Virus record (IMG/VR): IMGVR_UViG_3300010400_000048
Span: 1-26,824 of that record
Source: a virus
DNA length: 26,824 nucleotides
Direction: 5' to 3' (one strand)
Shown: positions 952 through 26,271 of the stretch, piece by piece
How the letters are laid out: every line of letters begins with the position of its first letter
Numbering within the stretch: position 1 is the stretch's first letter
The notes under the pieces: model-generated
The model's input: only the letters and a program-made list of their open reading frames with translations
Told to the model about the DNA's origin: nothing
Database searches by the model: none
Translations under genes and position numbers: made by a program

Positions 952-1295
952 TGTTTAAGCAAGTTCTCATATTGCGCAAGGATCTTAACATGCGTAAGGG
1001 TAAGATGATTGCCCAGGGAGCTCATGCTGCGATTGGAGCTTTAAAACAAGTCTCAGCCGCTGATAAAAAAGAGTGGGAAGCTAACGGCTGCACAAAAATA
1101 TGTCTAGGAGTAGACGATGAACAAACACTCCTAGACTTAGCACGAAGAGTAGCTGATGCAAAGATTCCTTGTTATGTTGTGCTAGATGCGGGTCGAACAG
1201 AGTTTCATGGAGAGCCAACGTTTACGGCTCTCGGTATTGGTCCAGCGCTTGCAGATGATATTGATAAATTCACAGGACAGTTGCATTTACTATAA
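951..1295 (+). CDS. Peptidyl-tRNA hydrolase 2 (Pth2 family)
   Basis: At 114 residues this is full length for the Pth2/PTRH2 family, which releases peptides from peptidyl-tRNA. The N-terminus KQVLILRKDLNMRKGKMIAQ followed by GAHAAIGAL is the family hallmark (Lys, Arg-Asp, GK-x2-AQ-x-AHA). The middle DAGRTEF and C-terminal TALGIGP plus DDIDKFTGQLHLL match the conserved end of the fold. Pth2 is mainly archaeal and eukaryotic, while bacteria normally use the unrelated Pth1, so a phage copy is notable. Possible roles are recycling peptidyl-tRNA during heavy translation or compensating for an inactivated host enzyme; both are inference. The gene is joined by TAATG overlaps on both sides. Confidence 0.88.
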   Translation: MFKQVLILRKDLNMRKGKMIAQGAHAAIGALKQVSAADKKEWEANGCTKICLGVDDEQTLLDLARRVADAKIPCYVVLDAGRTEFHGEPTFTALGIGPALADDIDKFTGQLHLL

Positions 1296-2416
1296 TGTAT
1301 CTAACAAAGATCGTTTTGGAGAACTTTCAAGGATTTGAAAGGGGAGAATTCAACCTATCTCCTAACCTTAACATTTTGGTTGGAGTTTCAAACGTAGGTA
1401 AAAGTAGTGTCGCTCGTGCCTTAGCCCTTGTCCTATATAATCAATGGGATAAGTCTTGGTGCAGATTTGGAGCGAAGTATTGCAGGATTACTCTTGAAAC
1501 GAGCACGGGCGTTGTGGTGATTCGTGAAAAGGGTGATAAGGTTAACCGTTATATCCTCCGTTCCCCTGGTTCCCCCGAACAGCTTTTTGAGTCTTTTGGC
1601 ACTTCCACCCCAGAACAGGTAAACCAAGCCCTTAAAATCCATGAAGTTCAAATCGATACTACTGACAAGCTGAATTTAAACTTAGCTGGCCAGATGGACG
1701 CTCTTTTTCTCCTTTCCCAGACAGGGAGTTATAGGGCGAAGGTCCTAGGTAAATTGTCCGGGGCGACGTATTTGGACCATGCGATCAGGGAGTTGAACAA
1801 AGACAAGCGTAGAATTACAGCTGAAAAGGATGCCAAGGATTTGGAGATTGTAGACCTTCAAACACAGGTAGATAAGTTTGGTGCATTAGAATCACTTTCT
1901 GGGACTATCTCGAACCTGGAAGCCCGATTGGTTTCCCTGGGTGCAGCAGAACAGCGCGTAGAACAGATCAGATCGCTCCTAGAACGCATAAAAGCCTTAC
2001 GGGATAGTTGGACACGGGAACATGCCAAAACTGAGCTTTTGGGCACCTTTGATCTTACAGCCATTGATAAATTAGCCCCAAGAGTAGATAAGATTAAGAC
2101 GATTGATTTGCTTTTAAGTGATGTCCTAGCGTTCAAGCTTTCATACTTCCATCATTATAACATAGATCAGTTTTTGAATAAGATCGATTTATCTGGTATA
2201 AGTATACTAGCGGATAAGGTGAAGGCTTTCAAAGCGAAGGAAGATTTAGCCGTACGACTTGTTGATCGGCTAGGTCTAATTCATCTTGTATCTCGTGATT
2301 TAAAACAAGCAGAACAAGATCATGCGGAAGCAGCAAAGCAGTATACAGATATGCTTCGAGAAAATGGAGTTTGCCCGACTTGTAATCAGGCAACAAATCA
2401 TCTATGCGTACAATAA
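1295..2416 (+). CDS. Rad50/SbcC-like ATPase, N-terminal half ending at zinc hook
   Basis: The start MYLTKIVLENFQGFERGEF is the typical SMC/Rad50 first strand and is followed by a Walker A GVSNVGKSS (residues 30-38). A Q-loop-like region follows, and roughly residues 165-355 are coiled coil. The protein stops just after a CPTC zinc hook (360-363). A normal SbcC/Rad50 would continue from the hook into the returning coil and the C-terminal ATPase lobe. Those parts (signature and Walker B) are encoded separately at 3939-4583. The complex presumably works with the Mre11-like nuclease at 2772 to process DNA ends in recombination-dependent replication, by analogy with T4 gp46/gp47. Its end overlaps the next gene by 13 bp. 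Confidence 0.85.
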   Translation: MYLTKIVLENFQGFERGEFNLSPNLNILVGVSNVGKSSVARALALVLYNQWDKSWCRFGAKYCRITLETSTGVVVIREKGDKVNRYILRSPGSPEQLFESFGTSTPEQVNQALKIHEVQIDTTDKLNLNLAGQMDALFLLSQTGSYRAKVLGKLSGATYLDHAIRELNKDKRRITAEKDAKDLEIVDLQTQVDKFGALESLSGTISNLEARLVSLGAAEQRVEQIRSLLERIKALRDSWTREHAKTELLGTFDLTAIDKLAPRVDKIKTIDLLLSDVLAFKLSYFHHYNIDQFLNKIDLSGISILADKVKAFKAKEDLAVRLVDRLGLIHLVSRDLKQAEQDHAEAAKQYTDMLRENGVCPTCNQATNHLCVQ

Positions 2417-2775
2417 TTGCAGGTAGCAGAACTATCACTGATCCAAAAGTCATTGAAGAAGCTGTAGCAGCTTCTGGATTCATTATTACAGAGGTTGTTT
2501 GCGGTGGAGCAGCAGGCGTAGATACTCTTGGAAAAGATTGGGCTGTACTTCGTGGCATTCCAGTTAAGATGTTTCCAGCGGATTGGGAAGCACATGGTAA
2601 AGCAGCTGGTCCTATTCGTAACGCTGAGATGGCTGCATACGCTGAGCAAGCTATCTGTATCTTTGATGCACAGGCTGAGAATAAGGGAACTAACAACATG
2701 TCAAAACAAGCCAGAACTGCTGGCAAGAATGTGTTCAATCACATAACAAATTTTAGGGTTATACCTTTAGAATGA
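2404..2775 (+). CDS. SLOG superfamily protein (DUF2493/YspA-like)
   Basis: A 123-residue protein beginning MRTIIAGSRTITD, with VVCGGAAGVDTLGKDWA in the middle and WEAHGKAAGPIRNAEMA further on. These are the beta-strand/GSR, GGAxGxD and AGxxRN motifs of the DUF2493 group of SLOG (SMF/DprA-LOG-like, Rossmann-type) proteins. The fold binds nucleotides or nucleotide-derived ligands; for phage copies the ligand is not known. It sits between the Rad50 N-half (13-bp overlap) and Mre11 (ATGA overlap), so it is made with the recombination complex, but a physical link is only inferred. No clear ribosome site precedes the ATG, which suggests translational coupling. Confidence 0.8.
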   Translation: MRTIIAGSRTITDPKVIEEAVAASGFIITEVVCGGAAGVDTLGKDWAVLRGIPVKMFPADWEAHGKAAGPIRNAEMAAYAEQAICIFDAQAENKGTNNMSKQARTAGKNVFNHITNFRVIPLE

Positions 2776-3698
2776 AGATTCTATTCTTTACAGACATGCA
2801 CTTGCGTTCAGCGTCTGATCGTCCCAAATGGCGCATCGATGATCATTATAAGCAGCAGTTTGCTGAGCTTCAGGAGATTAGCTCTATAGCCAAAGATCAG
2901 AAGGTTGATCTAATGGTGAGCGTTGGAGATTTCTTTGACCATACACGTGTGTCTCATCAGCTGGTAACTGATACTTTGAATTGGTGCAAGACGTTACCCT
3001 GTTCTTTATATAGCGTAGTAGGAAATCATGATGTTAATGCCTATGTAACCTCAGATCGTAACAACGGTCTTGGTGTGCTCTTTGAAAGTGGTGCGGTAGA
3101 ACGTCTCGATGATTTGGTGTTAGACGATAAGAAGGTTGTAATTCGTGGCGTGCATGTTTTTATTGATCCAAGACAAGGTAACTACATGTTTGATTCACAG
3201 TATAAGGACTATTTTAAGATTGTAGCTAGTCATAATTTTATCATTCCTCGAGAAGTTCCTTTTGATCATGTGCTTCCTCAGGATGTTAAGACAAACGCCA
3301 ATGTTATCGTACTAGGGCATTATCATCAATGCTTCCATATGTTTCATAATAACACAGCTTTCGTTAATCCAGGTAGCATATCACGTTGGGCAGTTAACGA
3401 GCAGCATCAGCCACAAGTATTTATAGTAGATACAGAGAAAAACGCAGGTATGATAACAAGTTTCCCGCTTAAGTGTGCTTTACCGGCTGCTGAGATTTTT
3501 GATCTAGCTGCAGCTGCTGAGATCAAATCAACAGAGATGAACTTACAGGCATTTGTTGATAGCTTAGAGAATACAAGCTTCGATAATGTAGATGTAGAAA
3601 ACGTGGTTTTGACAGAAGGCAATAAGCAAGGCCTAGTTAAAGGGGTAGTTGATCTAGCTTTAACAAAAATACAACAAGCGAAGGTGGAATTAAAATGA
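2772..3698 (+). CDS. Mre11/SbcD-like metallophosphoesterase (recombination nuclease)
   Basis: The 308-residue protein carries the calcineurin-like phosphoesterase motifs in order: FFTDMHLR (D-x-H), VGDFFDH (GD), VVGNHDV (GNHD), VASHNF (H) and LGHYHQ (GHxH). Together these form the two-metal site of Mre11, SbcD and T4 gp47. The remaining C-terminal region, about 100 residues after FVNPGSISRW, would be the capping and Rad50-binding part. The size fits phage gp47 homologues. It lies between the two halves of a split Rad50-like ATPase and overlaps both neighbours by 4 bp (ATGA), strong evidence for one nuclease complex that resects or trims DNA ends. Confidence 0.9.
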   Translation: MKILFFTDMHLRSASDRPKWRIDDHYKQQFAELQEISSIAKDQKVDLMVSVGDFFDHTRVSHQLVTDTLNWCKTLPCSLYSVVGNHDVNAYVTSDRNNGLGVLFESGAVERLDDLVLDDKKVVIRGVHVFIDPRQGNYMFDSQYKDYFKIVASHNFIIPREVPFDHVLPQDVKTNANVIVLGHYHQCFHMFHNNTAFVNPGSISRWAVNEQHQPQVFIVDTEKNAGMITSFPLKCALPAAEIFDLAAAAEIKSTEMNLQAFVDSLENTSFDNVDVENVVLTEGNKQGLVKGVVDLALTKIQQAKVELK

Positions 3699-3958
3699 GC
3701 CTAGAACAAGATCTATTAAATTTAAAAACCAAGGGTGAAAAACTTGATACCCTTCGTAAGGAAAATGCTGCAAGGCTAACGGTGCTAGAAGAAGAGAAAG
3801 AAAAGCTTCTAGTTGAAGCACAGGCGCTTGGCATAGCTCCAGATCAGATTGAAGAGACTCTGAAGCGCGAAGAAGCTGCTGTTCAAGCAGAAGTAACAGC
3901 GTTGGATGTTGAACTATCTAAGGTATTAGAACAACTTAATGAATCAAATAGCAAGTAA
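3695..3958 (+). CDS. Coiled-coil protein, probable separate Rad50 coil segment
   Basis: The 87-residue sequence is almost wholly heptad-like and charged (Glu, Lys, Leu rich), with a short break at QALGIAPDQ. That pattern is what one sees in the returning coil of SbcC/Rad50. The gene lies immediately before the Rad50 C-half and overlaps it by 20 bp in a different frame (+1). Two readings are possible. It may be an independent coiled-coil subunit that pairs with the N-half coil, or the first part of the C-half joined by a +1 shift. The second start (3939) lacks a good Shine-Dalgarno sequence, which leaves both options open. No enzymatic motif is present. Confidence 0.7.
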   Translation: MSLEQDLLNLKTKGEKLDTLRKENAARLTVLEEEKEKLLVEAQALGIAPDQIEETLKREEAAVQAEVTALDVELSKVLEQLNESNSK

Positions 3959-4583
3959 ATTTAATAACGTAAAGACAACATATCACGAAAAGCTTGGTGA
4001 ACTTAACAAGCTAAAGCGTGATTTGACAACTGCGAAGGCTAAAATCATTGAGCTAACTGATAAAGAGGACACGACGCTTAAGGCAAGCCTATTTTTACAG
4101 TCTTTGTCTGATCAGACACGTCTTCAGGTTCTTGATAAGATTTCAGGCATAGTGACAGAAGCACTCCAGACCGTTAAGGATAAGAATTTGGTCTTCACGA
4201 TGCAGCTCGTTACTAAGGCAAATCAACCCACCTTAGAGATGGGTATCCTGGATAAGTTATCCGGACAGACATACGATGTAGTCAACTCTTTTGGTGGTGG
4301 TATCTGCGATATTGTATCCTTGGCTTTACGTGTTGCACTTCTAGTTAAGTGGCAACCAAGCTTGTCTCGAGTGTTGATCCTGGATGAGGCTTGTAAGCAC
4401 GTTGCTATTAAGGATCAAGAGCTATTATCAACCTTTGTTAGGAAGCTATCAGAAGCACTGAACGTTCAATTTATCTGGATATCGCATTCTGATATCCTGC
4501 AGCAAGCAGCTCATAAGATTTTTGAGGTGAACAAACATGACGGACTCTCAACAGCCGAAGAAAAAGACGCCAAAGCCCTTTAA
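3939..4583 (+). CDS. Rad50/SbcC-like ATPase, C-terminal half
   Basis: The 214-residue protein begins with about 60 residues of coiled coil. It continues into the C-terminal ATPase lobe of Rad50/SbcC. The ABC signature region is SFGGGICDIVSLALRVALL, and Walker B with its catalytic Glu is VLILDEACKHV, followed by FIWISHSD, the H-loop region. It has no P-loop, so it must pair with the product of 1295-2416 to make an ATP-binding site. Only about 60 residues of coil are present here, far fewer than the roughly 190 in the N-half. The upstream 87-residue coil protein may make up part of the difference. It overlaps the next gene by 47 bp. Confidence 0.85.
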   Translation: MNQIASKFNNVKTTYHEKLGELNKLKRDLTTAKAKIIELTDKEDTTLKASLFLQSLSDQTRLQVLDKISGIVTEALQTVKDKNLVFTMQLVTKANQPTLEMGILDKLSGQTYDVVNSFGGGICDIVSLALRVALLVKWQPSLSRVLILDEACKHVAIKDQELLSTFVRKLSEALNVQFIWISHSDILQQAAHKIFEVNKHDGLSTAEEKDAKAL

Positions 4584-5136
4584 TGAAGATGCAGTGCTTC
4601 GTGGAGCATGGCGCAGAGCATTTAGGCAGTTCCCTATAAAGAAAGAAGTCTTGGCTGAAGGAACACGCCGAGTACCACGTTATAATCAAGATGGTAGTCG
4701 AGCTAAGATAGACTCTAAAGAGCATCATTGTCAGGTTTGCAATAAATGGGTTAAGGCGTCAGTAGGTGGCAAGAACAACATAGACGTCGATCATATCATC
4801 CCAGTTATCGATGTTAATGATATCAGTGGTAAGGTCAGTGACTGGAATGTCTATAAATCCAGGCTGGTATGTGATAAGTCTAATCTTCAGCGCATTTGTC
4901 GCGCTTGTCACACTATTAAGACAAAGACAGAAGCTGATCATCGAAATGCCTTGAAAGACAAGGAAGCGATGGATGTATTAGAAGAGCAGATCAAGTTTGC
5001 CAAGAGCGTTACTGAAGAGAAGGCTCTTAAGAAGAGATTTGCAAGATTTTTGAATAAGAAGAAGCCAGCTGCTACACGAGAACGTGCAGCAAAGCTGAAA
5101 GAGCTTCTTATAAAAAGAATGACGCAAGAGGATTAA
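4537..5136 (+). CDS. HNH endonuclease-like protein
   Basis: A 199-residue basic protein with a zinc-bound HNH fold in the middle. CQVCNKW supplies the first metal-binding pair, VDHIIPV the catalytic DH, NLQRICRACH the Asn and second Cys pair, and HTIKTK the last His. The N-terminus (QQPKKKTPKP) and C-terminus are strongly basic and lysine-rich, fitting DNA binding. GAGGTG lies 7 nt upstream of the start. HNH proteins in phages may be homing nucleases, packaging nucleases or recombination nucleases. Its position directly behind Mre11/Rad50, with a 47-bp overlap and inside the same gene run, argues for a resident role rather than a recent homing insertion, but this is not proven. Confidence 0.82.
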   Translation: MTDSQQPKKKTPKPFNEDAVLRGAWRRAFRQFPIKKEVLAEGTRRVPRYNQDGSRAKIDSKEHHCQVCNKWVKASVGGKNNIDVDHIIPVIDVNDISGKVSDWNVYKSRLVCDKSNLQRICRACHTIKTKTEADHRNALKDKEAMDVLEEQIKFAKSVTEEKALKKRFARFLNKKKPAATRERAAKLKELLIKRMTQED

Positions 5137-6226: not shown

Positions 6227-6410
6227 TGCACCTTGTACCTGTAAGCATAGTAAGGCGAATCATCTAAGCCCACATTTTTGGGCTGATGAGGTTAGACAGG
6301 TTATTGATACAGTGATGGGTTGTAGTGTAAAGAATTGCCAGTGTAATGTGTTCGTAATGGACAATTTGAAGTTTTTAGAAAAGGAATATGATGCTAAATC
6401 TGGAGAATAG
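6213..6410 (+). CDS. Mini zinc protein, CxCxHx4H / Cx4CxC type (copy 1 of 5)
   Basis: A 65-residue protein with two metal-binding clusters. The first is CTCKHSKANH (C8, C10, H12, H17) and the second is CSVKNCQCNVF. The pattern C-x(1,2)-C-x-H-x4-H, a variable linker, then C-x(4,5)-C-x-C-x2-[FY] recurs in four other small genes of this window (10112, 19165, 21774, 22016). That recurrence makes it a true small protein rather than a chance frame. The function is unknown; zinc-mediated protein or nucleic-acid binding is plausible. It lies immediately before the DNA polymerase gene, overlapping it by 23 bp. Confidence 0.7.
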   Translation: MLKGNAPCTCKHSKANHLSPHFWADEVRQVIDTVMGCSVKNCQCNVFVMDNLKFLEKEYDAKSGE

Positions 6411-8985
6411 TGGTTGTACTAAATGTCCGTTAAGTGAGCTGAGGACCTGCGTTCTTAATGGTATAGGTGATCCACAATCGAAGATTGTCTTCGTTATGGA
6501 TTCTCCATCCGTTGAGGATGATCATAATCAAAAACCATTTTCAGGTACTTCAGCTAGAAAGCTGAATAGTCTTCTGTCACGTTTTGGTGTCCATAGTAGT
6601 CAAGTCTACTTTACCTATGCTACACGTTGCCGAGCTAATCTTCGAACCGTAGAAGGCTTTCGACCTGCTCATTTTGAGGAGATTCAGGCTTGTAGTAGTT
6701 ACCTAGAGAAGGAAATAGCTGAGATCAAGCCTAATGTCATTGTGCCAATGGGTACTGAAGCTATGATGGCTGTTTTTAACATCAAGAAACCAAAGGTTAG
6801 TGAACTACGAGGCATTGAGGCGTGGAGTGATAGATTTGGATGCAAGATTTTACCTACTTATGGCATGGGAGCAGTCTTGAGAAATCCTAATTTAGAAGAG
6901 GTTGTTACGCAGGATCTTCGTAGAGCATTAGAATCATCTAAATCATTGGAGCTTACAGCAGTGGAAAAAGGCAATTACATAACTATTGATAGCATTGAGG
7001 CATTTGATGCTTTCTTTGAACGCATCATGGAACAGCCTGAATCTTCCATGGACTTAGAAACAACAGGCTTTGACTGGCAAAAGGATAAGATCATCTGCTG
7101 CTCATTCTCTTGGGCCAAGAATACTGGTGTTCTGCTTCCAATTACAAAATGGATTGGTATTGATCACGAGCGTATCGTTATTAAGGAAAGAAAGGTAACA
7201 CGTAAGGGAGTTACAACTAAGAAGCAAGTTGAGATCATTGAAAAGTACATTGAAGATACATATCATCCTTGGTGGGGTGATAAGCAAGACTACGTTATGT
7301 CCAAGTTCAAACAGATCATGGAAAGTAACATCAAGTGGACAGCTCAGAATGGCAAGTTCGACTGGAAGTTCCTTTTATACTTAGGCTTCAATCTTAAACC
7401 TCTATCTTTTGATACACTCTTAATGCACTACCTGCTTCGTGAAACCTCAAAGGGTGAACATAACCTTGAGGATATGTCTCTCCAGTACCTAGGCAAAGGT
7501 CAGCATAAGAAAGAACTTGATGACTGGTTCAAAGCCAATGGCATGGAAGATGATGAGAAGAAGAACTATGCTCGTGTGCCCACTGAGCTTCTCTTTAAAT
7601 ACGGTGCAGCAGACGCCGATGTAACACTTCAGCTTAAGAACATCTTCCTTGAACGCTTAGAAGCTGAGGGAATGCTTGATCTATTCCACCACCTTATTAT
7701 GCCATTGAATTATACGATCACACAAATGGAATATGAAGGATTCAAGATTGATCGCAATGCTATGGAGTACGCTAAGAAGAAGCTAGAGCAAGAGCTTGCT
7801 GACACGTCTAAGGATATTAAGGATCTTTTGATTGCTGCAGGTGTTACTGAAGAGGTTGATATTGATTCACCTAAGCAGCTTTCAAAGCTATTCTTTGAGA
7901 CGTTAAAACTCAAGCCAGTTAAGGCTACGAAGACTGGATTCTCTACTGATGAGGAAGTCCTGAACGTCCTAGCGGAGAATTACAAGGATGCTACGGGTAA
8001 GAAAGAGAAAAATAGTATCCCTAACAAGATCCTAGAGTTTAGGGGAATTGCGAAATTGCTCCGAACTTACGTTTTGGGCATTGAGGATCGTTTAGACGAT
8101 AACAGTCGATTGCATACAAAGTTCCTTCAGGAAGGTACTGAGTCAGGACGTTTGTCAAGCCGTGATCCTAACTTCCAGAACTTCCCACGTGATTCTAAGC
8201 TTATTAAAAACATGTTCTATGTAGAACCTGGGAACATCTTAATCGAAGCTGATGAAGGACAGAATGAGTTTCGATGGTGGGGAATTTACTCAAATGATCC
8301 TCAGCTCGTTGCAGATTTGAATGCTGGTCTTGATATCCATAGGTTCATGGCTGCGAAGGCCAATAAGATTCCTATGGAACAGGTTACTGGTACTCAACGT
8401 CGTATTGCTAAGAGCATCGTGTTTGGTCTTATGTTTAACATGGGATCAGAGAAGCTTGCACATGATCACGGTGTTACAGAAGAGTATGCTGAAGAGGTTA
8501 AAGCCATTTTCTTTAATAGATATCCTGTCGCTAAGCAGTGGAAGAAGGATATTGTAATGTTTGCTCGCAAGAATTACCACGTTCGAAATCGTTTCGGTCG
8601 TGTTCGTCACTTGCTGGCTATCAATCACAGCGATAATAAGATTGCTTATGCTGATGAGCAGGGTGCAGTTAACTCACCTATTCAAGGTGCAGCTTCAGAT
8701 TACGTGTCCAATGCCGCCAACCGTATTTATAATAACCTCAAGGCACAAGGATTACACGGAAAGCTGCGTAACTTGGTTCACGACGCTATCTATGTCGAAG
8801 TTCCTAAAGCTGAGCTTCAACAGACAATTGCAATTATGAATGAAGCTATGACACGAAGAATTTTAGATATTCAAGTTCCCCTAATTGCGGAATTTAAAAT
8901 TGGACGTCGTTGGGGTAGGATGCACGTGCTAAAAGCTAAGACTGTAGACAAGATTGTTGAGAAACAGGTTGCGGTAACAGCCTAA
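6388..8985 (+). CDS. Family A DNA polymerase with N-terminal UDG-like domain
   Basis: An 865-residue replicative polymerase in three parts. Residues 1 to about 180 are a family 4 uracil-DNA-glycosylase-like domain with cysteines C10, C13, C81 and C102 placed like iron-sulfur ligands. Its motif A reads DSPSVED and the usual His of the TYHP box is Gly159 (TYGMG), so it is probably inactive as a glycosylase. The 3'-5' exonuclease follows, with DLE (D222, E224), NGKFD and AADAD all present. The polymerase domain has motif A DEGQNEFR (D622), motif B RRIAKSIVFGLMFNMG (K675) and motif C LVHDAIYVEV (D799), where the usual Glu after Asp is Ala800. A UDG-like domain on a Pol A enzyme is also known in phage SPO1. 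The second ATG (6391) has better spacing from AAGGA and may be the true start. Confidence 0.93.
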   Translation: MMLNLENSGCTKCPLSELRTCVLNGIGDPQSKIVFVMDSPSVEDDHNQKPFSGTSARKLNSLLSRFGVHSSQVYFTYATRCRANLRTVEGFRPAHFEEIQACSSYLEKEIAEIKPNVIVPMGTEAMMAVFNIKKPKVSELRGIEAWSDRFGCKILPTYGMGAVLRNPNLEEVVTQDLRRALESSKSLELTAVEKGNYITIDSIEAFDAFFERIMEQPESSMDLETTGFDWQKDKIICCSFSWAKNTGVLLPITKWIGIDHERIVIKERKVTRKGVTTKKQVEIIEKYIEDTYHPWWGDKQDYVMSKFKQIMESNIKWTAQNGKFDWKFLLYLGFNLKPLSFDTLLMHYLLRETSKGEHNLEDMSLQYLGKGQHKKELDDWFKANGMEDDEKKNYARVPTELLFKYGAADADVTLQLKNIFLERLEAEGMLDLFHHLIMPLNYTITQMEYEGFKIDRNAMEYAKKKLEQELADTSKDIKDLLIAAGVTEEVDIDSPKQLSKLFFETLKLKPVKATKTGFSTDEEVLNVLAENYKDATGKKEKNSIPNKILEFRGIAKLLRTYVLGIEDRLDDNSRLHTKFLQEGTESGRLSSRDPNFQNFPRDSKLIKNMFYVEPGNILIEADEGQNEFRWWGIYSNDPQLVADLNAGLDIHRFMAAKANKIPMEQVTGTQRRIAKSIVFGLMFNMGSEKLAHDHGVTEEYAEEVKAIFFNRYPVAKQWKKDIVMFARKNYHVRNRFGRVRHLLAINHSDNKIAYADEQGAVNSPIQGAASDYVSNAANRIYNNLKAQGLHGKLRNLVHDAIYVEVPKAELQQTIAIMNEAMTRRILDIQVPLIAEFKIGRRWGRMHVLKAKTVDKIVEKQVAVTA

Positions 8986-10336: not shown

Positions 10337-10629
10337 TGAGCGAACAGAATTTAGAAGCATTTGAAGCAGAAGCAAGAGCAATCGTAGAATCAGCAATCCG
10401 TCTTCTAGTTAACAAACGTCGTGACTATGGTCCCAATGCTTTAAAAGGCGGTCAAGCCGGGATTGTCATTCGTATGTCTGATAAGATGGGTCGTCTTGAG
10501 AATCTTATGGGCATATCCAACGGGACGTTTAAATCCAAAGATGCTATCGTAGGCGATGAAAAGATTGAGGATACTATTAAGGATATCCTTAATTATAGTC
10601 TTTTGTTTTTAATGGAAGGAAAGAAATAA
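10336..10629 (+). CDS. DUF1599 / nucleotide modification associated domain 1 protein
   Basis: The 97 residues match the Nmad1 (DUF1599, PF07659) pattern: KRRDYGPNAL, then GIVIRMSDKMGRLENL, then EKIEDTIKDILNYSLLFL. The domain was named for its frequent occurrence with DNA-base-modification genes in phages and is an all-alpha, MazG-like fold. Its biochemical activity is not established as far as I know. It lies between a mini zinc protein and GMP reductase, joined to both by TAATG overlaps, which fits a role in handling purine or modified nucleotides. Confidence 0.85.
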   Translation: MSEQNLEAFEAEARAIVESAIRLLVNKRRDYGPNALKGGQAGIVIRMSDKMGRLENLMGISNGTFKSKDAIVGDEKIEDTIKDILNYSLLFLMEGKK

Positions 10630-11684
10630 TGCTACCTCCAGCAATGCCTACAGTATCGCACCCTTGCTTTGATGATGTTCTTCTAGCGCCAGTCTTTTCG
10701 AACATTCGTAGCAGACAAGAGGTTGATCCTTCTACTGAGTTTCTTGGGCTTAAGCTTTCATTACCAGTCACAAACTCTAATATGGATACAATCTCAAGCG
10801 CAGAGCTTAGTAAGGTACTTCACGAGTATGGTACAGTTAGCTCTCTTCATAGGTTTTGTTCTATTGAAGATAATGTTAAGGCGTTTAATGATTCTATTCA
10901 TAATGGGATTAAGCCTATAGTTTCAATCGGGGTAGGGGCAAATGAATGGCTGCGTGCAGTTGAGCTTGCAACACATGGTGCTGATATCTTTCTTTTAGAT
11001 GTAGCTCATGCTGCAAATATAGCAGTTGTAGAAATGTTTATTAAATTGAAAACAGATTTTCCTGAGGGGAAGTTTATTGTGGGAAATTTTGGTACTGCTT
11101 CTGAGGTGCAAGAATTTATTCGTCAAACAGCTATCAAACAAGGTGATGCTGCTTATTGCTACATTCCAGATGCTATTTGCGTTGGTATCGGTGGTGGTAG
11201 TATGTGTTTAACCAGAGTCGTAACTGGTGTTGGAATACCAACACTTGCTTCAATTTTAGATTGTGCAGACATTTGTGAGAAGTACAACATGAAGATGATG
11301 GTAAATGGTGGTCTTCGTAATAGCGGAGATATCGTTAAGGCTTTAGCTGCTGGTGCTGATCTTATTATGCTTGGGTCGATGTTTGCCGGTACAGATGAAG
11401 CGTCTGGTAGAACTACCTCAACCCATAAAGAATATCGTGGTTCAGCATCTGCTCCTTCCTATGAAGCACAAGGCAAGATTGCACCATGGAGAGCAGCGGA
11501 AGGTGATTCAACTTGGGTGCCTTTCAAAGGTCCAGCTGTAAACGTACTGAACCAGATCAATGGTGGTATCCGAAGTGCATGTAGCTATTTAAATGCTTCT
11601 ACGATTGATCAGCTGCGTGCTAATGCTAAATTCAATTTTGTAACGACAAATACAGTAACGGAGAATAAAGCCCATGGCAAATAA
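10629..11684 (+). CDS. guaC: GMP reductase (IMPDH/GMPR family)
   Basis: The 351 residues are close to the usual 345-350 of GMP reductase and lack the CBS domains of IMP dehydrogenase. Visible features are the N-terminal FDDVLLAP, the barrel strand VTNSNMDTI, and the phosphate loop and catalytic box GGSMCLTRVVTGVG (Cys193, Thr195). NGGLRNSGDIVKALAAGADLIMLGSMFAGTDE is the second half of the barrel. The C-terminal end, with EYRGSAS, WRAAEGDSTWVPFKG and GGIRSACSYLNA, is the GMPR-type version. The enzyme converts GMP to IMP using NADPH. In a phage it would redirect guanine nucleotides, perhaps host RNA-derived GMP, toward IMP and adenine or modified purines. It follows DUF1599 (TAATG) and overlaps the next gene by 11 bp. 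Confidence 0.9.
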   Translation: MLPPAMPTVSHPCFDDVLLAPVFSNIRSRQEVDPSTEFLGLKLSLPVTNSNMDTISSAELSKVLHEYGTVSSLHRFCSIEDNVKAFNDSIHNGIKPIVSIGVGANEWLRAVELATHGADIFLLDVAHAANIAVVEMFIKLKTDFPEGKFIVGNFGTASEVQEFIRQTAIKQGDAAYCYIPDAICVGIGGGSMCLTRVVTGVGIPTLASILDCADICEKYNMKMMVNGGLRNSGDIVKALAAGADLIMLGSMFAGTDEASGRTTSTHKEYRGSASAPSYEAQGKIAPWRAAEGDSTWVPFKGPAVNVLNQINGGIRSACSYLNASTIDQLRANAKFNFVTTNTVTENKAHGK

Positions 11685-12030: not shown

Positions 12031-12692
12031 TGATATCAACGATACTCCCAGCCTTTAAATATCTAATTGAGGAACGTAAGCTTACAGAGCAGACGATCCG
12101 GACCTTCAATCTAGGGTATGTAAGCAGTGTTGGGGATATCTATGTTGGTGCAGAGTTTGTAGGTGAGATGCCTCAGTTGGATAAGAGATTCTATCATTCA
12201 TCCCTCTTCCCAATTTTTGATATGTTCGGTAAGTGTATAGCAGCGTCAGTAAGACCTCTTGGTCAAACGAAGACCAAGTACATCAATACCGAGTATGAGA
12301 AGAAGGAACATCTATATGGTTTGTCAGTGACATGGCAAGCTTGTTTGCAGGCGCAGGAAGTATACGTGGTTGAAGGAAACATTAGCTTACTTCAGATGCA
12401 CCAAGCAGGTATCACTAATTGTGTTGCGATGTTAGGTTCAAGGCTTTCACCAACCCAGGTTTGTCTTCTTAATAGATTCGTCAAGAAGGTTATCATGGTA
12501 CCTGATGCTGATAAAGCTGGCCGCAAATTGATAGAGAAGATGCAAGATGAACTTATCCCTACTAAGCTGTATGATTCAGATATAAAATTTACTTACATTG
12601 AGTTACCAAACGACCAAGATCCTGATGATTATTTTAAAACACATTCTAAAGAAGATTTCTTAGGTCTGACGGAACAGGAGTTAAACGTATGA
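12030..12692 (+). CDS. DnaG-type primase catalytic core (Toprim), minimal
   Basis: The 220 residues contain only the catalytic part of a DnaG primase. The N-terminal subdomain shows LTEQTIRTFNLGYV and FPIFDMFGKCIAASVRPLG with KYINTEY, as in the RNA-polymerase core of DnaG. The Toprim part has VYVVEGNISLLQMHQAGI and VIMVPDADKAGRK (E and D-x-D). DQDPDDYF near the end matches the DnaG 'NDPDDYL' segment. The N-terminal zinc-binding domain and C-terminal helicase-binding domain are absent, so a zinc domain or helicase must come from another gene, not found in this window. It makes RNA primers for the Pol A replisome. It ends with an ATGA overlap. Confidence 0.88.
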   Translation: MISTILPAFKYLIEERKLTEQTIRTFNLGYVSSVGDIYVGAEFVGEMPQLDKRFYHSSLFPIFDMFGKCIAASVRPLGQTKTKYINTEYEKKEHLYGLSVTWQACLQAQEVYVVEGNISLLQMHQAGITNCVAMLGSRLSPTQVCLLNRFVKKVIMVPDADKAGRKLIEKMQDELIPTKLYDSDIKFTYIELPNDQDPDDYFKTHSKEDFLGLTEQELNV

Positions 12693-13240
12693 GTGATAAA
12701 GCATGGTACATTATTTCAACACAAGGTATTGGGCCACGAGCAATCGTTAAGATCCAAGCCATTCTAGACGTCCTTGATTATGAGGGTGAGCTTTACCTAC
12801 CCATGGTAAGAGTTGCTGGCACAACCATCAATAAGATTAAGGATAGTGAGAAGATCTTATTTCCTGGTTATGTCTTCATCTTTACAAGGATAGAGAATAG
12901 CAGACTGGAACAAGCTTTGATGGAAGCAAAGGTGGGTAAGTTCTTAAAGCTTCCTCATAATGAAGAGAATGATTTTCCTACTCCTATCCCTCAATCAGAG
13001 ATTGATCATATTAAAGAGCTTGAGATGGCTAATGCTGCACCTGTTCCAGAAGAAATCATTGATATTGCTGTAGGCAATCTCGTGGAGATTTGCGTTGGTC
13101 CACTGATTGGATTTAAGGGTATCGTTATGAAGATATCCGGACATAGTGCATCGATCGATACATTGATCTTTGGACGTTCAACACCTGTAACCGTTAATAT
13201 CTCTCATCTGACCAAACTCTCTGATAGTACACCGCAATGA
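12689..13240 (+). CDS. NusG-like transcription elongation factor
   Basis: The 183-residue product has the NusG layout. The N-terminal NGN domain begins KAWYIISTQGIGPRAIVKIQ and includes the KILFPGYVFIFT box, followed by the EAKVGKFLKLP region. The C-terminal KOW domain is VGNLVEICVGPLIGFKGIVM. Host NusG couples RNA polymerase to Rho or ribosomes, whereas specialised paralogues (RfaH, LoaP) act as antiterminators. A phage copy next to two sigma-like genes probably retargets host RNA polymerase to late or long operons; that is inference. AGGAG lies 8 nt before the start, and both ends overlap neighbours by ATGA. Confidence 0.88.
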   Translation: MSDKAWYIISTQGIGPRAIVKIQAILDVLDYEGELYLPMVRVAGTTINKIKDSEKILFPGYVFIFTRIENSRLEQALMEAKVGKFLKLPHNEENDFPTPIPQSEIDHIKELEMANAAPVPEEIIDIAVGNLVEICVGPLIGFKGIVMKISGHSASIDTLIFGRSTPVTVNISHLTKLSDSTPQ

Positions 13241-24656: not shown

Positions 24657-25144
24657 TGAGTTTAACTAGAATCCAAAAGACATTTGTGCAATTGGCGTCC
24701 AGAAAGTGGATGAATGCTGTACCGTACGGACGACCTCCTTATGGCTATCGATCTAAGAAGAAATTCCCTGTAGCTAAAGTAAGGGTTGAGATTATTGATG
24801 CTGTTACTGGTCAGAAAACGTCTGGTAAATCTGGTTCAGAACCAACCAAGGCTAAGCTTAAGAAATGGCTGAAGCTGCGTAACGTTCGAGCTGAATTTAT
24901 AGAGGTTATCCTTAAGAAGAAGTCAACTTGGTTTAAACTCGAAGATTCTGAATTCAATGACTATCCTATTATAGTTAAGGTTGGAACCTATAAAGCACCG
25001 TACCTTATTAAGCGTGTACAAGATCGAAGGACTCGCAAGGGTATTACAACCATCAGTATCCAATTGGAAACAACTGGGAACATTGATTATATCTCGATCT
25101 TAAGTAAGAAGAAAGAAATGCTAGCTAATAAGGGAAAGAAATGA
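24656..25144 (+). CDS. Basic hypothetical protein
   Basis: The 162-residue protein is very basic (about 35 Lys, 12 Arg) with alternating strands (VAKVRVEIIDAVTGQKT, YPIIVKVGTYKAPYLIK, TISIQLETTGNIDYISI) and no cysteines. It could bind nucleic acid or be a small structural protein. It is linked to the membrane gene by TAATG and to the RNA ligase by ATGA. It is not recognised. Confidence 0.66.
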   Translation: MSLTRIQKTFVQLASRKWMNAVPYGRPPYGYRSKKKFPVAKVRVEIIDAVTGQKTSGKSGSEPTKAKLKKWLKLRNVRAEFIEVILKKKSTWFKLEDSEFNDYPIIVKVGTYKAPYLIKRVQDRRTRKGITTISIQLETTGNIDYISILSKKKEMLANKGKK

Positions 25145-26271
25145 ATCCAGCGCAGTATATAAAGATGCATGAGCTGTGGGATCTTGAGAAGCTGAAACAG
25201 CATGCTCAACATAACAACGTCTATGTCATTCAATCCCCTAAATTCCCAGATGTCGTGATGCTGCATTATATGGATGCAGTTCAGTACGATAACCTGTGGA
25301 ATACCTTTAATCGAATGTGCCGTGGATTGATCCTAGACATGAAAAATCAACGTGTCTTGGCATGGCCGTTCAACAAATTTTTCAACCTAGATCAAATGCC
25401 TGAGACGAAATATGATAAACTCGAGACTTTGGGCCATTTTGATACAAGCGAGAAGCTAGATGGTTCGATGATCATTATGTTCCGTGATCCAAATACGAAC
25501 AAGCTGATGCTTACAACTAAAGGCTCGTTGGATTCAGAACATGGTCAATATGCTAACGCGTTACCATTATCCCCTCAATTCCTTCTTAATGCAGAACGTT
25601 ACATGAGCAGAGGTACTCTCGTATTTGAGCTCATCTCGAAACGATTTCAAATTGTGGTGGATTATAGAAAGAAGGGTTACGAAGAGGGTTTGTATCTCAT
25701 TGGCTATCGCGATCATATCTCTGGCCAGCTTGCAAGCTTTAATGAAGTAGATAAGATTGCTGGGATGCTTGGTGTTCCTACATTTAAGAGATATCCCTTT
25801 AATTCCCTAGATTCCCTTCTGTCCACTGCGAAGGATCTTCCCGTGCTTGAAGAAGGCTTCGTACTCAGGTTTGAGGATGATCTTATGGTCAAGGTCAAAG
25901 GAAGTGCTTACCTTGCAGCTCATCGCTTTATAAGTCATCTAAGCGATCGGAACATATTACAGGCTGTAGCTGATGGAACGGCATCAAACTTAGCTACTCT
26001 AGCCCCTGAAGAATACGTCCAAGATGTACTAGATAAGATTGATCATTTCCAGAAAAGAGTTGCAGAGTTGGAGAAAACGTGTTATACTTTATATAGCGAG
26101 TCTCCTAAGAATGTTATACGGAGAGACTTCGCTTTCTGGGTTAACGAGAATGTCCCTTCTCATTTTAAGGGATTCATGTTTCAATTGCTGGACAATAAAC
26201 CGGTCGATCGTAAGCACTTGTTTAGAGTGCTCGAAGAGATCGATAATATCGATGGAAGAACGAGGATATAA
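25141..26271 (+). CDS. RNA ligase, T4 Rnl1-like
   Basis: The 376-residue ATP-dependent RNA ligase has the nucleotidyltransferase motifs in order: KLDGSM (motif I, Lys105 adenylated), LVFELISKRFQIV (motif III/IIIa region), EEGFVLRF (motif IV) and MVKVKGSAYLAAHR (motif V). The size agrees with T4 Rnl1 (374). Rnl1 repairs host tRNAs cut by anticodon nucleases, usually together with a polynucleotide kinase/phosphatase. No kinase is in this window, so it may lie elsewhere in the genome. An internal promoter (P6) lies in its last 210 bp. Confidence 0.9.
   Translation: MNPAQYIKMHELWDLEKLKQHAQHNNVYVIQSPKFPDVVMLHYMDAVQYDNLWNTFNRMCRGLILDMKNQRVLAWPFNKFFNLDQMPETKYDKLETLGHFDTSEKLDGSMIIMFRDPNTNKLMLTTKGSLDSEHGQYANALPLSPQFLLNAERYMSRGTLVFELISKRFQIVVDYRKKGYEEGLYLIGYRDHISGQLASFNEVDKIAGMLGVPTFKRYPFNSLDSLLSTAKDLPVLEEGFVLRFEDDLMVKVKGSAYLAAHRFISHLSDRNILQAVADGTASNLATLAPEEYVQDVLDKIDHFQKRVAELEKTCYTLYSESPKNVIRRDFAFWVNENVPSHFKGFMFQLLDNKPVDRKHLFRVLEEIDNIDGRTRI
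26060..26088 (+). promoter_or_regulatory. Promoter P6, TTGCAG-17-TATACT inside the RNA ligase gene
   Basis: The -35 TTGCAG (26060-26065) and -10 TATACT (26083-26088) have a 17-bp spacer and TG before the -10. It shares TGTTATACTTTATA with P1 (8969). Being inside a coding region it could drive the two downstream membrane genes separately from the ligase. Confidence 0.55.

Follow-up and report, generated by a model that had tools for sequence, protein, structure and literature searches.

Rad50 as separate proteins with a zinc-hook motif at a chain end: a candidate split design in phages and large plasmids

We analysed a 26,824-nucleotide stretch of viral DNA (IMG/VR record IMGVR_UViG_3300010400_000048, positions 1 to 26,824; the whole stretch is called the window here) in which Rad50, the partner of the Mre11 nuclease, appears to be encoded as separate proteins. 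Five genes follow one another on the plus strand. The first (1295–2416, 373 amino acids) encodes the Rad50 N-half, comprising the N-lobe of an ATP-binding cassette (ABC) head, a helical arm and a terminal zinc-hook motif; it matches Pfam AAA_23 above its cut-off (PF13476, E = 6e-10) and phrog_16465 (E = 8e-38). Next come a SLOG (YspA/YAcAr) protein (2404–2775; PF10686, E = 1.5e-12), the Mre11/SbcD nuclease (2772–3698; PF00149, E = 2.5e-12, and PF12850, both above cut-off; phrog_100, E = 6.6e-10) and a small subunit, s (3695–3958, 87 amino acids), predicted by AlphaFold2 (AF2) as a helix-turn-helix with the turn LGIAP. Last is the C-half (3939–4583, 214 amino acids; phrog_15167, E = 4.8e-28), a root coil of ~55 residues followed by the C-lobe. 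The calcineurin-like nuclease motifs DMH, GDFFD, GNHD and GHYH can be read in the Mre11 sequence. Each gene shares its last 4 to 20 bases with the start of the next (2404/2416, 2772/2775, 3695/3698 and 3939/3958), which suggests that they are co-translated. An earlier note, made from the letters of this DNA, had described a Walker A motif, a coil, a CPTC hook, SLOG and Mre11 proteins, an 87-residue protein and a C-half, and reading frames and domain searches recovered each of them at the same coordinates. The SLOG gene was found in two related loci (L005 and L006; relatives are numbered in this way throughout) and not seen in a third (L007); its product is a passenger and no constant part of the Rad50 module.

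Between them, the two halves carry the motifs of a Rad50 head. In the N-half, the Walker A motif GVSNVGKSS (residues 30–38; 1382–1408) has G30, G35 and K36 invariant in 23 N-halves, as is the Q-loop glutamine Q133 (1691–1693). In the C-half, the ABC signature GGG (residues 119–121; 4293–4301) has G119 and G120 invariant in 27 C-halves, the Walker B motif LILDE (residues 146–150; 4374–4388) has D149 and E150 invariant in the C-half alignment, and the switch histidine H183 is conserved in at least 90% of that alignment. Searched against PDB sequences, the N-half profile found Rad50 as its best match (5f3w, E = 4e-13) and the C-half profile the C-terminal Rad50 chain 3qkr_B (E = 3e-14); these matches are to the N and C lobes, some of them solved as separate chains. 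Foldseek ranked Rad50 1f2u_A first among PDB matches of the N-half model, and its top match among the viral folds of BFVD was A7KV18 of Bacillus phage 0305phi8-36. Of the features that define Rad50/SbcC, the locus thus has the Walker A motif and Q-loop of the N-lobe, the signature, Walker B/D-loop and switch histidine of the C-lobe, a CxxC motif and an Mre11/SbcD gene close by. It lacks a single chain with both lobes and a mid-chain apex hook between antiparallel coils of similar length, and the N-half does not reach the curated full-length NCBIfam models PRK03918 and Rad50_Sulf (21–31 bits, against cut-offs of 700–1000). We set aside a reading as a defence system because PADLOC matched the N-half only to ATPase heads in general (LmuB, GajA and PtuA) and gave nothing for s or the C-half, and because a DNA polymerase and a primase-type protein are encoded among the neighbours.

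Classical Rad50 is one chain running head-coil-hook-coil-head, with the hook at 0.48–0.51 of its length (0.51 in T4 gp46 and 0.48 in E. coli SbcC, our controls), whereas here there are three chains, a terminal hook and an extra small subunit. With 23 relatives aligned, AF2 predicted the N-half as the N-lobe followed by helices at residues 157–250, 254–294 and 301–356, and the CPTC motif after them (mean predicted local distance difference test score, pLDDT, 80; predicted template modelling score, pTM, 0.42). This motif (residues 360–363; 2372–2383), with C360, P361 and C363 invariant in 23 N-halves, lies 10 residues before the stop, and the C-terminal end of the chain reads NGVCPTCNQATNHLCVQ. 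Among 40 N-terminal chains, including those of complete genomes, CxxC lies 4–28 residues from the C-terminus (median 10).

N-half, Mre11, s and C-half turn up again in phages, prophages and plasmids whose sequences are as little as ~20% identical. The closest IMG/VR relatives, with N-halves 40–63% identical to that of the window, have these pieces; a search with the C-half alignment yielded 38 IMG/VR loci, with an N-half nearby in those that are uncut; and in the complete loci that we tabulated, both halves have a profile match to Mre11 close by. Named hosts and sources include Bacillus, Sutcliffiella, Brevibacillus, Dethiobacter, a Deferribacterales metagenome-assembled genome, Tunturiibacter, Microcystis and Microbacterium. 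Two gene orders dominate. N-Mre11-s-C is found in the window's clade and, answering the earlier note's proposal to look for the same order, in Microcystis phage Mvi-JY20; N-s-C-Mre11 is found in Bacillota prophages and Bacillus phage vB_BboS-125 (NC_048735). The Mre11 gene of the latter phage (L002:9250–10230) is an open frame left unannotated in its record. In Tunturi_5 the N-half lies at ~127–128 kb and the C-half at ~19 kb, so the pieces are independent of adjacency.

This recurrence, complete genomes included, bears out the earlier note's view of the halves, which look functional, as separate polypeptides whose hook is terminal; the same split in dozens of genomes rules out chance or a sequencing error between halves that really join. 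A full-length Rad50 elsewhere, the other explanation the note had raised, was sought in the records of 25 relatives and none was found; for the window, whose own record is a 26.8-kb fragment, its absence is judged from those relatives. In 24 of the 25 records a single AAA_23 match exceeds the cut-off, and the protein that gives it is the N-half. In the remaining record, Tunturi_5, the sole AAA_23 match is below cut-off (E = 0.0045) and lies elsewhere, the N-half being detected by the family profile; two relatives' records have an extra marginal match under the cut-off. Judged from these sequences, the conclusion holds that Rad50 would here consist of three separate proteins with an end-of-chain hook, a stable design of many phages and large plasmids and not a broken gene.

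Natural fusions keep the hook at the end as well. Mre11 is joined to the N-half in proteins of 841–937 residues from Bacillus sp. M6-12, Paenibacillus pSC2 and Aneurinibacillus plasmids, again with the hook near the C-terminus and with separate s and C-half genes downstream. A gene for an ATP-binding protein follows such clusters in Bacillota plasmids and Bacillus sp. M6-12 (L063:6810–8654, L066:7687–9534 and L069:7665–9494). That of L063 looks like a HerA-type translocase, and we take this cluster with its HerA-like gene to resemble archaeal mre11-rad50-herA-nurA operons.

Another joined form, on proteobacterial megaplasmids (Pseudomonas pMPPla107 and pBASL58, Vibrio, Variovorax, Alteromonas and Bosea), is by its domain order a circularly permuted Rad50 whose hook stays terminal. 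The protein, of 573–663 residues, begins with the C-lobe (E = 1e-20 to 5e-29), continues with the N-lobe and arm (E = 7e-19 to 1e-38) and ends in CPTC, CPLC or CEKC plus His. C-half and N-half share one chain with a terminal hook in all six megaplasmid loci examined (L068:6842–8749, L071:2501–4399, L072:2941–4932, L073:3007–4977, L074:2911–4632 and L075:2833–4752), and 21 plasmid records match the protein, ten of them across at least 80% of its length. Its gene stands between those of a small helical-looking protein, upstream, and an Mre11-like protein, downstream.

The arm of the N-half is built in units. In the window it comprises a root with the first two 45-residue segments (residues 167–256; 1793–2062; AF2 helix 157–250), a variable 45-residue unit (residues 257–301; 2063–2197) marked by a lag-45 repeat signal (z up to 6.5 in relatives), and a last segment of 58 residues before the hook (residues 302–359; 2198–2371; AF2 helix 301–356), the first and last being set by the unit register. 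When arms are compared with the register fixed at the hook, the variable unit is absent in L007 and one extra is present in L006 and L010. Within the window's clade, arms measured from residue 185 to the hook are 130, 175 or 220 residues long, which corresponds to one, two or three variable 45-residue units without gaps. Arms of the Bacillota branch are ~273 or ~320 residues long, with a repeat lag of 47 (z up to 11). The Bacillota clade with ~320-residue arms also has an extra protein of ~100 amino acids between the N-half and s (L025:2998–3300 and equivalents), with weak matches to s (E = 0.02–0.2).

Nearly all relatives have an s gene (77–97 residues) immediately 5' of the C-half. In the most divergent loci (L018, L041, L045, L046 and L059) the s profile is weak or silent, yet a helical-looking protein of 77–96 residues stands 5' of the C-half. 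AF2 predicts helices at residues 3–45 and 50–86 around the conserved G-x-x-P turn (pLDDT 81, pTM 0.36). We found no significant match to s in PHROGs, NCBIfam or PADLOC, and none above cut-off in Pfam. An artificial frame-shifted fusion of s to the C-half was rejected, as the two genes do not overlap in many relatives. Because s stands so constantly beside the C-half, we infer that it takes over part of the missing return strand.

In Rad50, each head is folded jointly from its two halves, and ATP is held between a pair of heads; the root coil is the binding site of Mre11, and two arms are linked through the hook. We consider it probable that the genes described here encode a working Mre11-Rad50 complex of the SbcCD type, for DNA-end processing, with a Rad50 permanently made of separate chains. 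The N-lobe of the N-half and the C-lobe of the C-half would bind to form one ABC head, and two such heads would dimerise with ATP as they do in ordinary Rad50. A short root coil, bound by Mre11, would be formed where the N-half helix begins, by pairing with the ~55-residue helix of the C-half. Beyond the root, the N-half would run on by itself as a modular mast, helical and assembled from units of 45 residues (47 in the Bacillota branch). The terminal CxxC would meet that of a second N-half around one zinc ion, either joining two complexes or closing one dimer. An obligatory partner in this scheme, s would probably sit on the root or the mast where the descending strand has been lost, and the whole may act in phage recombination and replication. 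That each 45- or 47-residue unit binds one s, so that a stackable s replaces the descending coil and its copies equal the number of units, we regard as quite improbable; if true, a phage could lengthen its tethering arm by adding units in one gene, with s unchanged.

Several results weigh against this scheme. Compared by hhalign with the Rad50 arm or the C-half coil, s gave probabilities of 4–6%, with no detectable homology, and the pTM of the AF2 models (0.42 for the N-half and 0.36 for s) leaves the relative placement of the helices undecided. The trees of N-head, C-half and Mre11 run parallel, with distance matrices correlating at r = 0.90–0.92 (27 loci); this speaks for the scheme, but part of it is owed to shared descent. 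In four of the six permuted loci (L068, L071, L072 and L074) the Mre11-like partner scores very weakly and may be degenerate, and Microbacterium phage Magritte keeps the split with an N-half that has no CxxC at all; thus, not all members can use nuclease and hook alike. The halves of Magritte lie far apart in its genome (L085:2339–3391 and L064:284–934).

A distinctly unlikely alternative is that the proteins form an ordinary antiparallel Rad50 coil, with s and the C-half helix as the descending strand in two pieces and only the covalent links lost. Both are helical, the s gene almost always adjoins the 5' end of the C-half gene, and in L037 and L042 the N-half, s and C-half genes are nearly contiguous, as two cuts in a single gene would leave them. 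However, the arm varies about threefold (~110–327 residues) whereas the C-half (189–239 amino acids) and s (77–96) hardly do. Regressed on arm length, the summed length of s and C-half has a slope of 0.05 residue per residue where a return strand in these proteins would need ~1, and most of the arm is therefore without a length-matched return. Moreover, s is predicted as two helices around its conserved turn and not as one long helix, and the permuted proteins likewise have no matching return strand. The earlier note had looked to other chains for any returning coil. This may hold for the root, where the C-half provides ~55 residues and can pair with nothing further out, and is not supported for most of the arm; that the arm must differ from the classical architecture is supported. 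Another possibility, which we find unlikely, is that the arm folds back at its 45-residue joints, with helices running up and down in a compact bundle and not an extended mast. The AF2 helix breaks at 251–253 and 295–300, one unit apart, and the exact recurrence of the units would suit such folding. Yet the N-halves of the window and L010 are 62% identical with arms one unit apart, and both unit parities occur. Up-down folding would shift the hook to the opposite end of the bundle with each single-unit difference, and an extended stack of units is therefore favoured, by a parity argument drawn from sequence; nor does the low pTM hint at a compact bundle.

The terminal motif might also be a self-contained zinc knuckle with four ligands in one chain, which would bridge no complexes; we hold this to be somewhat unlikely as a general account. 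At least two further Cys or His residues are present in 18 of the 40 tails, including that of the window (CPTC-x6-H-x-C) and others of the form CPLC...HSH or HTH, and in lineages with such extra ligands, the window among them, an intrachain four-ligand knuckle is possible. One further Cys or His is found in 13 tails, and none in the remaining nine, among them those of the close relatives L006, L010 and L016. Only the CxxC pair is common to all, as would be expected if zinc is bound between two chains in the manner of Rad50. Barely credible is that the gene was recently broken by a homing endonuclease, or that its pieces are rejoined through split inteins or trans-splicing introns. Genes of AP2/HNH type do stand between or beside the pieces in some loci (L002; window 4537–5136), but even highly divergent lineages share the positions of the junctions, no extra intein-like segment is present in the chains, Rfam gave no match in the window, and the natural fused and permuted forms keep the hook terminal. 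A tRNA scan found nothing either.

A Mre11-Rad50 complex of separate chains, as favoured here, shares its head motifs, CxxC, clustered Mre11 and best PDB matches with Rad50/SbcC and Mre11/SbcD (T4 gp46/gp47, E. coli SbcCD and P. furiosus Rad50), and differs in that the classical descending coil has no length-matched counterpart. The crystallographic Rad50 chains 1f2t, 1us8 and 3qkr, among the best PDB profile matches, likewise build the head from separate N- and C-lobe chains. They are laboratory constructs, whereas the present split is natural and places a long arm and hook on the N chain only. PHROGs keeps the best matches of the two halves as separate families, phrog_16465 ('exonuclease') for the N-half and phrog_15167 ('ATPase') for the C-half. 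A 2011 paper noted that the ATPase half is missing in a phage Mre11/Rad50 fusion (PMC3175470); the fusions it describes have Mre11 and then the N-part of Rad50, as in L063, L066 and L069, and the word 'hook' is absent from its text. The phage protein among them is A7KV18 of phage 0305phi8-36, the top BFVD match of the N-half given above. Passages of a survey report SbcC/SbcD to be practically universal in jumbo phages and mention no split SbcC (PMC7824862), and passages of another study describe the Rad50 hook as a stable dimerisation module (PMC6969161). Among open-licence papers, our literature search found no description of a split Rad50, a terminal hook, s or a permuted Rad50, and the design is apparently undescribed.

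Rad50 is treated as one chain that forms an antiparallel coil, with the hook halfway along the chain at the coil's apex. The split, Mre11-fused and permuted forms would be natural experiments on what arm and hook require. They would also account for unlinked annotations in phages and plasmids ('exonuclease', 'ATPase', 'chromosome partitioning protein ParA' and hypothetical), and they suggest that head, arm and hook, being separate proteins of a small multi-subunit complex, could be swapped.

Elsewhere in the window, genes for a putative phage metallopeptidase and a peptidyl-tRNA hydrolase 2 lie directly upstream of the N-half (541–1295), with similar proteins upstream in L005 and L006. The window also has a DNA polymerase A gene (6388–8985), in which an N-terminal domain of uracil-DNA-glycosylase type is joined to exonuclease and polymerase domains. 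Further genes encode an IMP dehydrogenase/GMP reductase (10629–11684), a NusG-like protein (12689–13240) and a T4-type RNA ligase (25141–26271).

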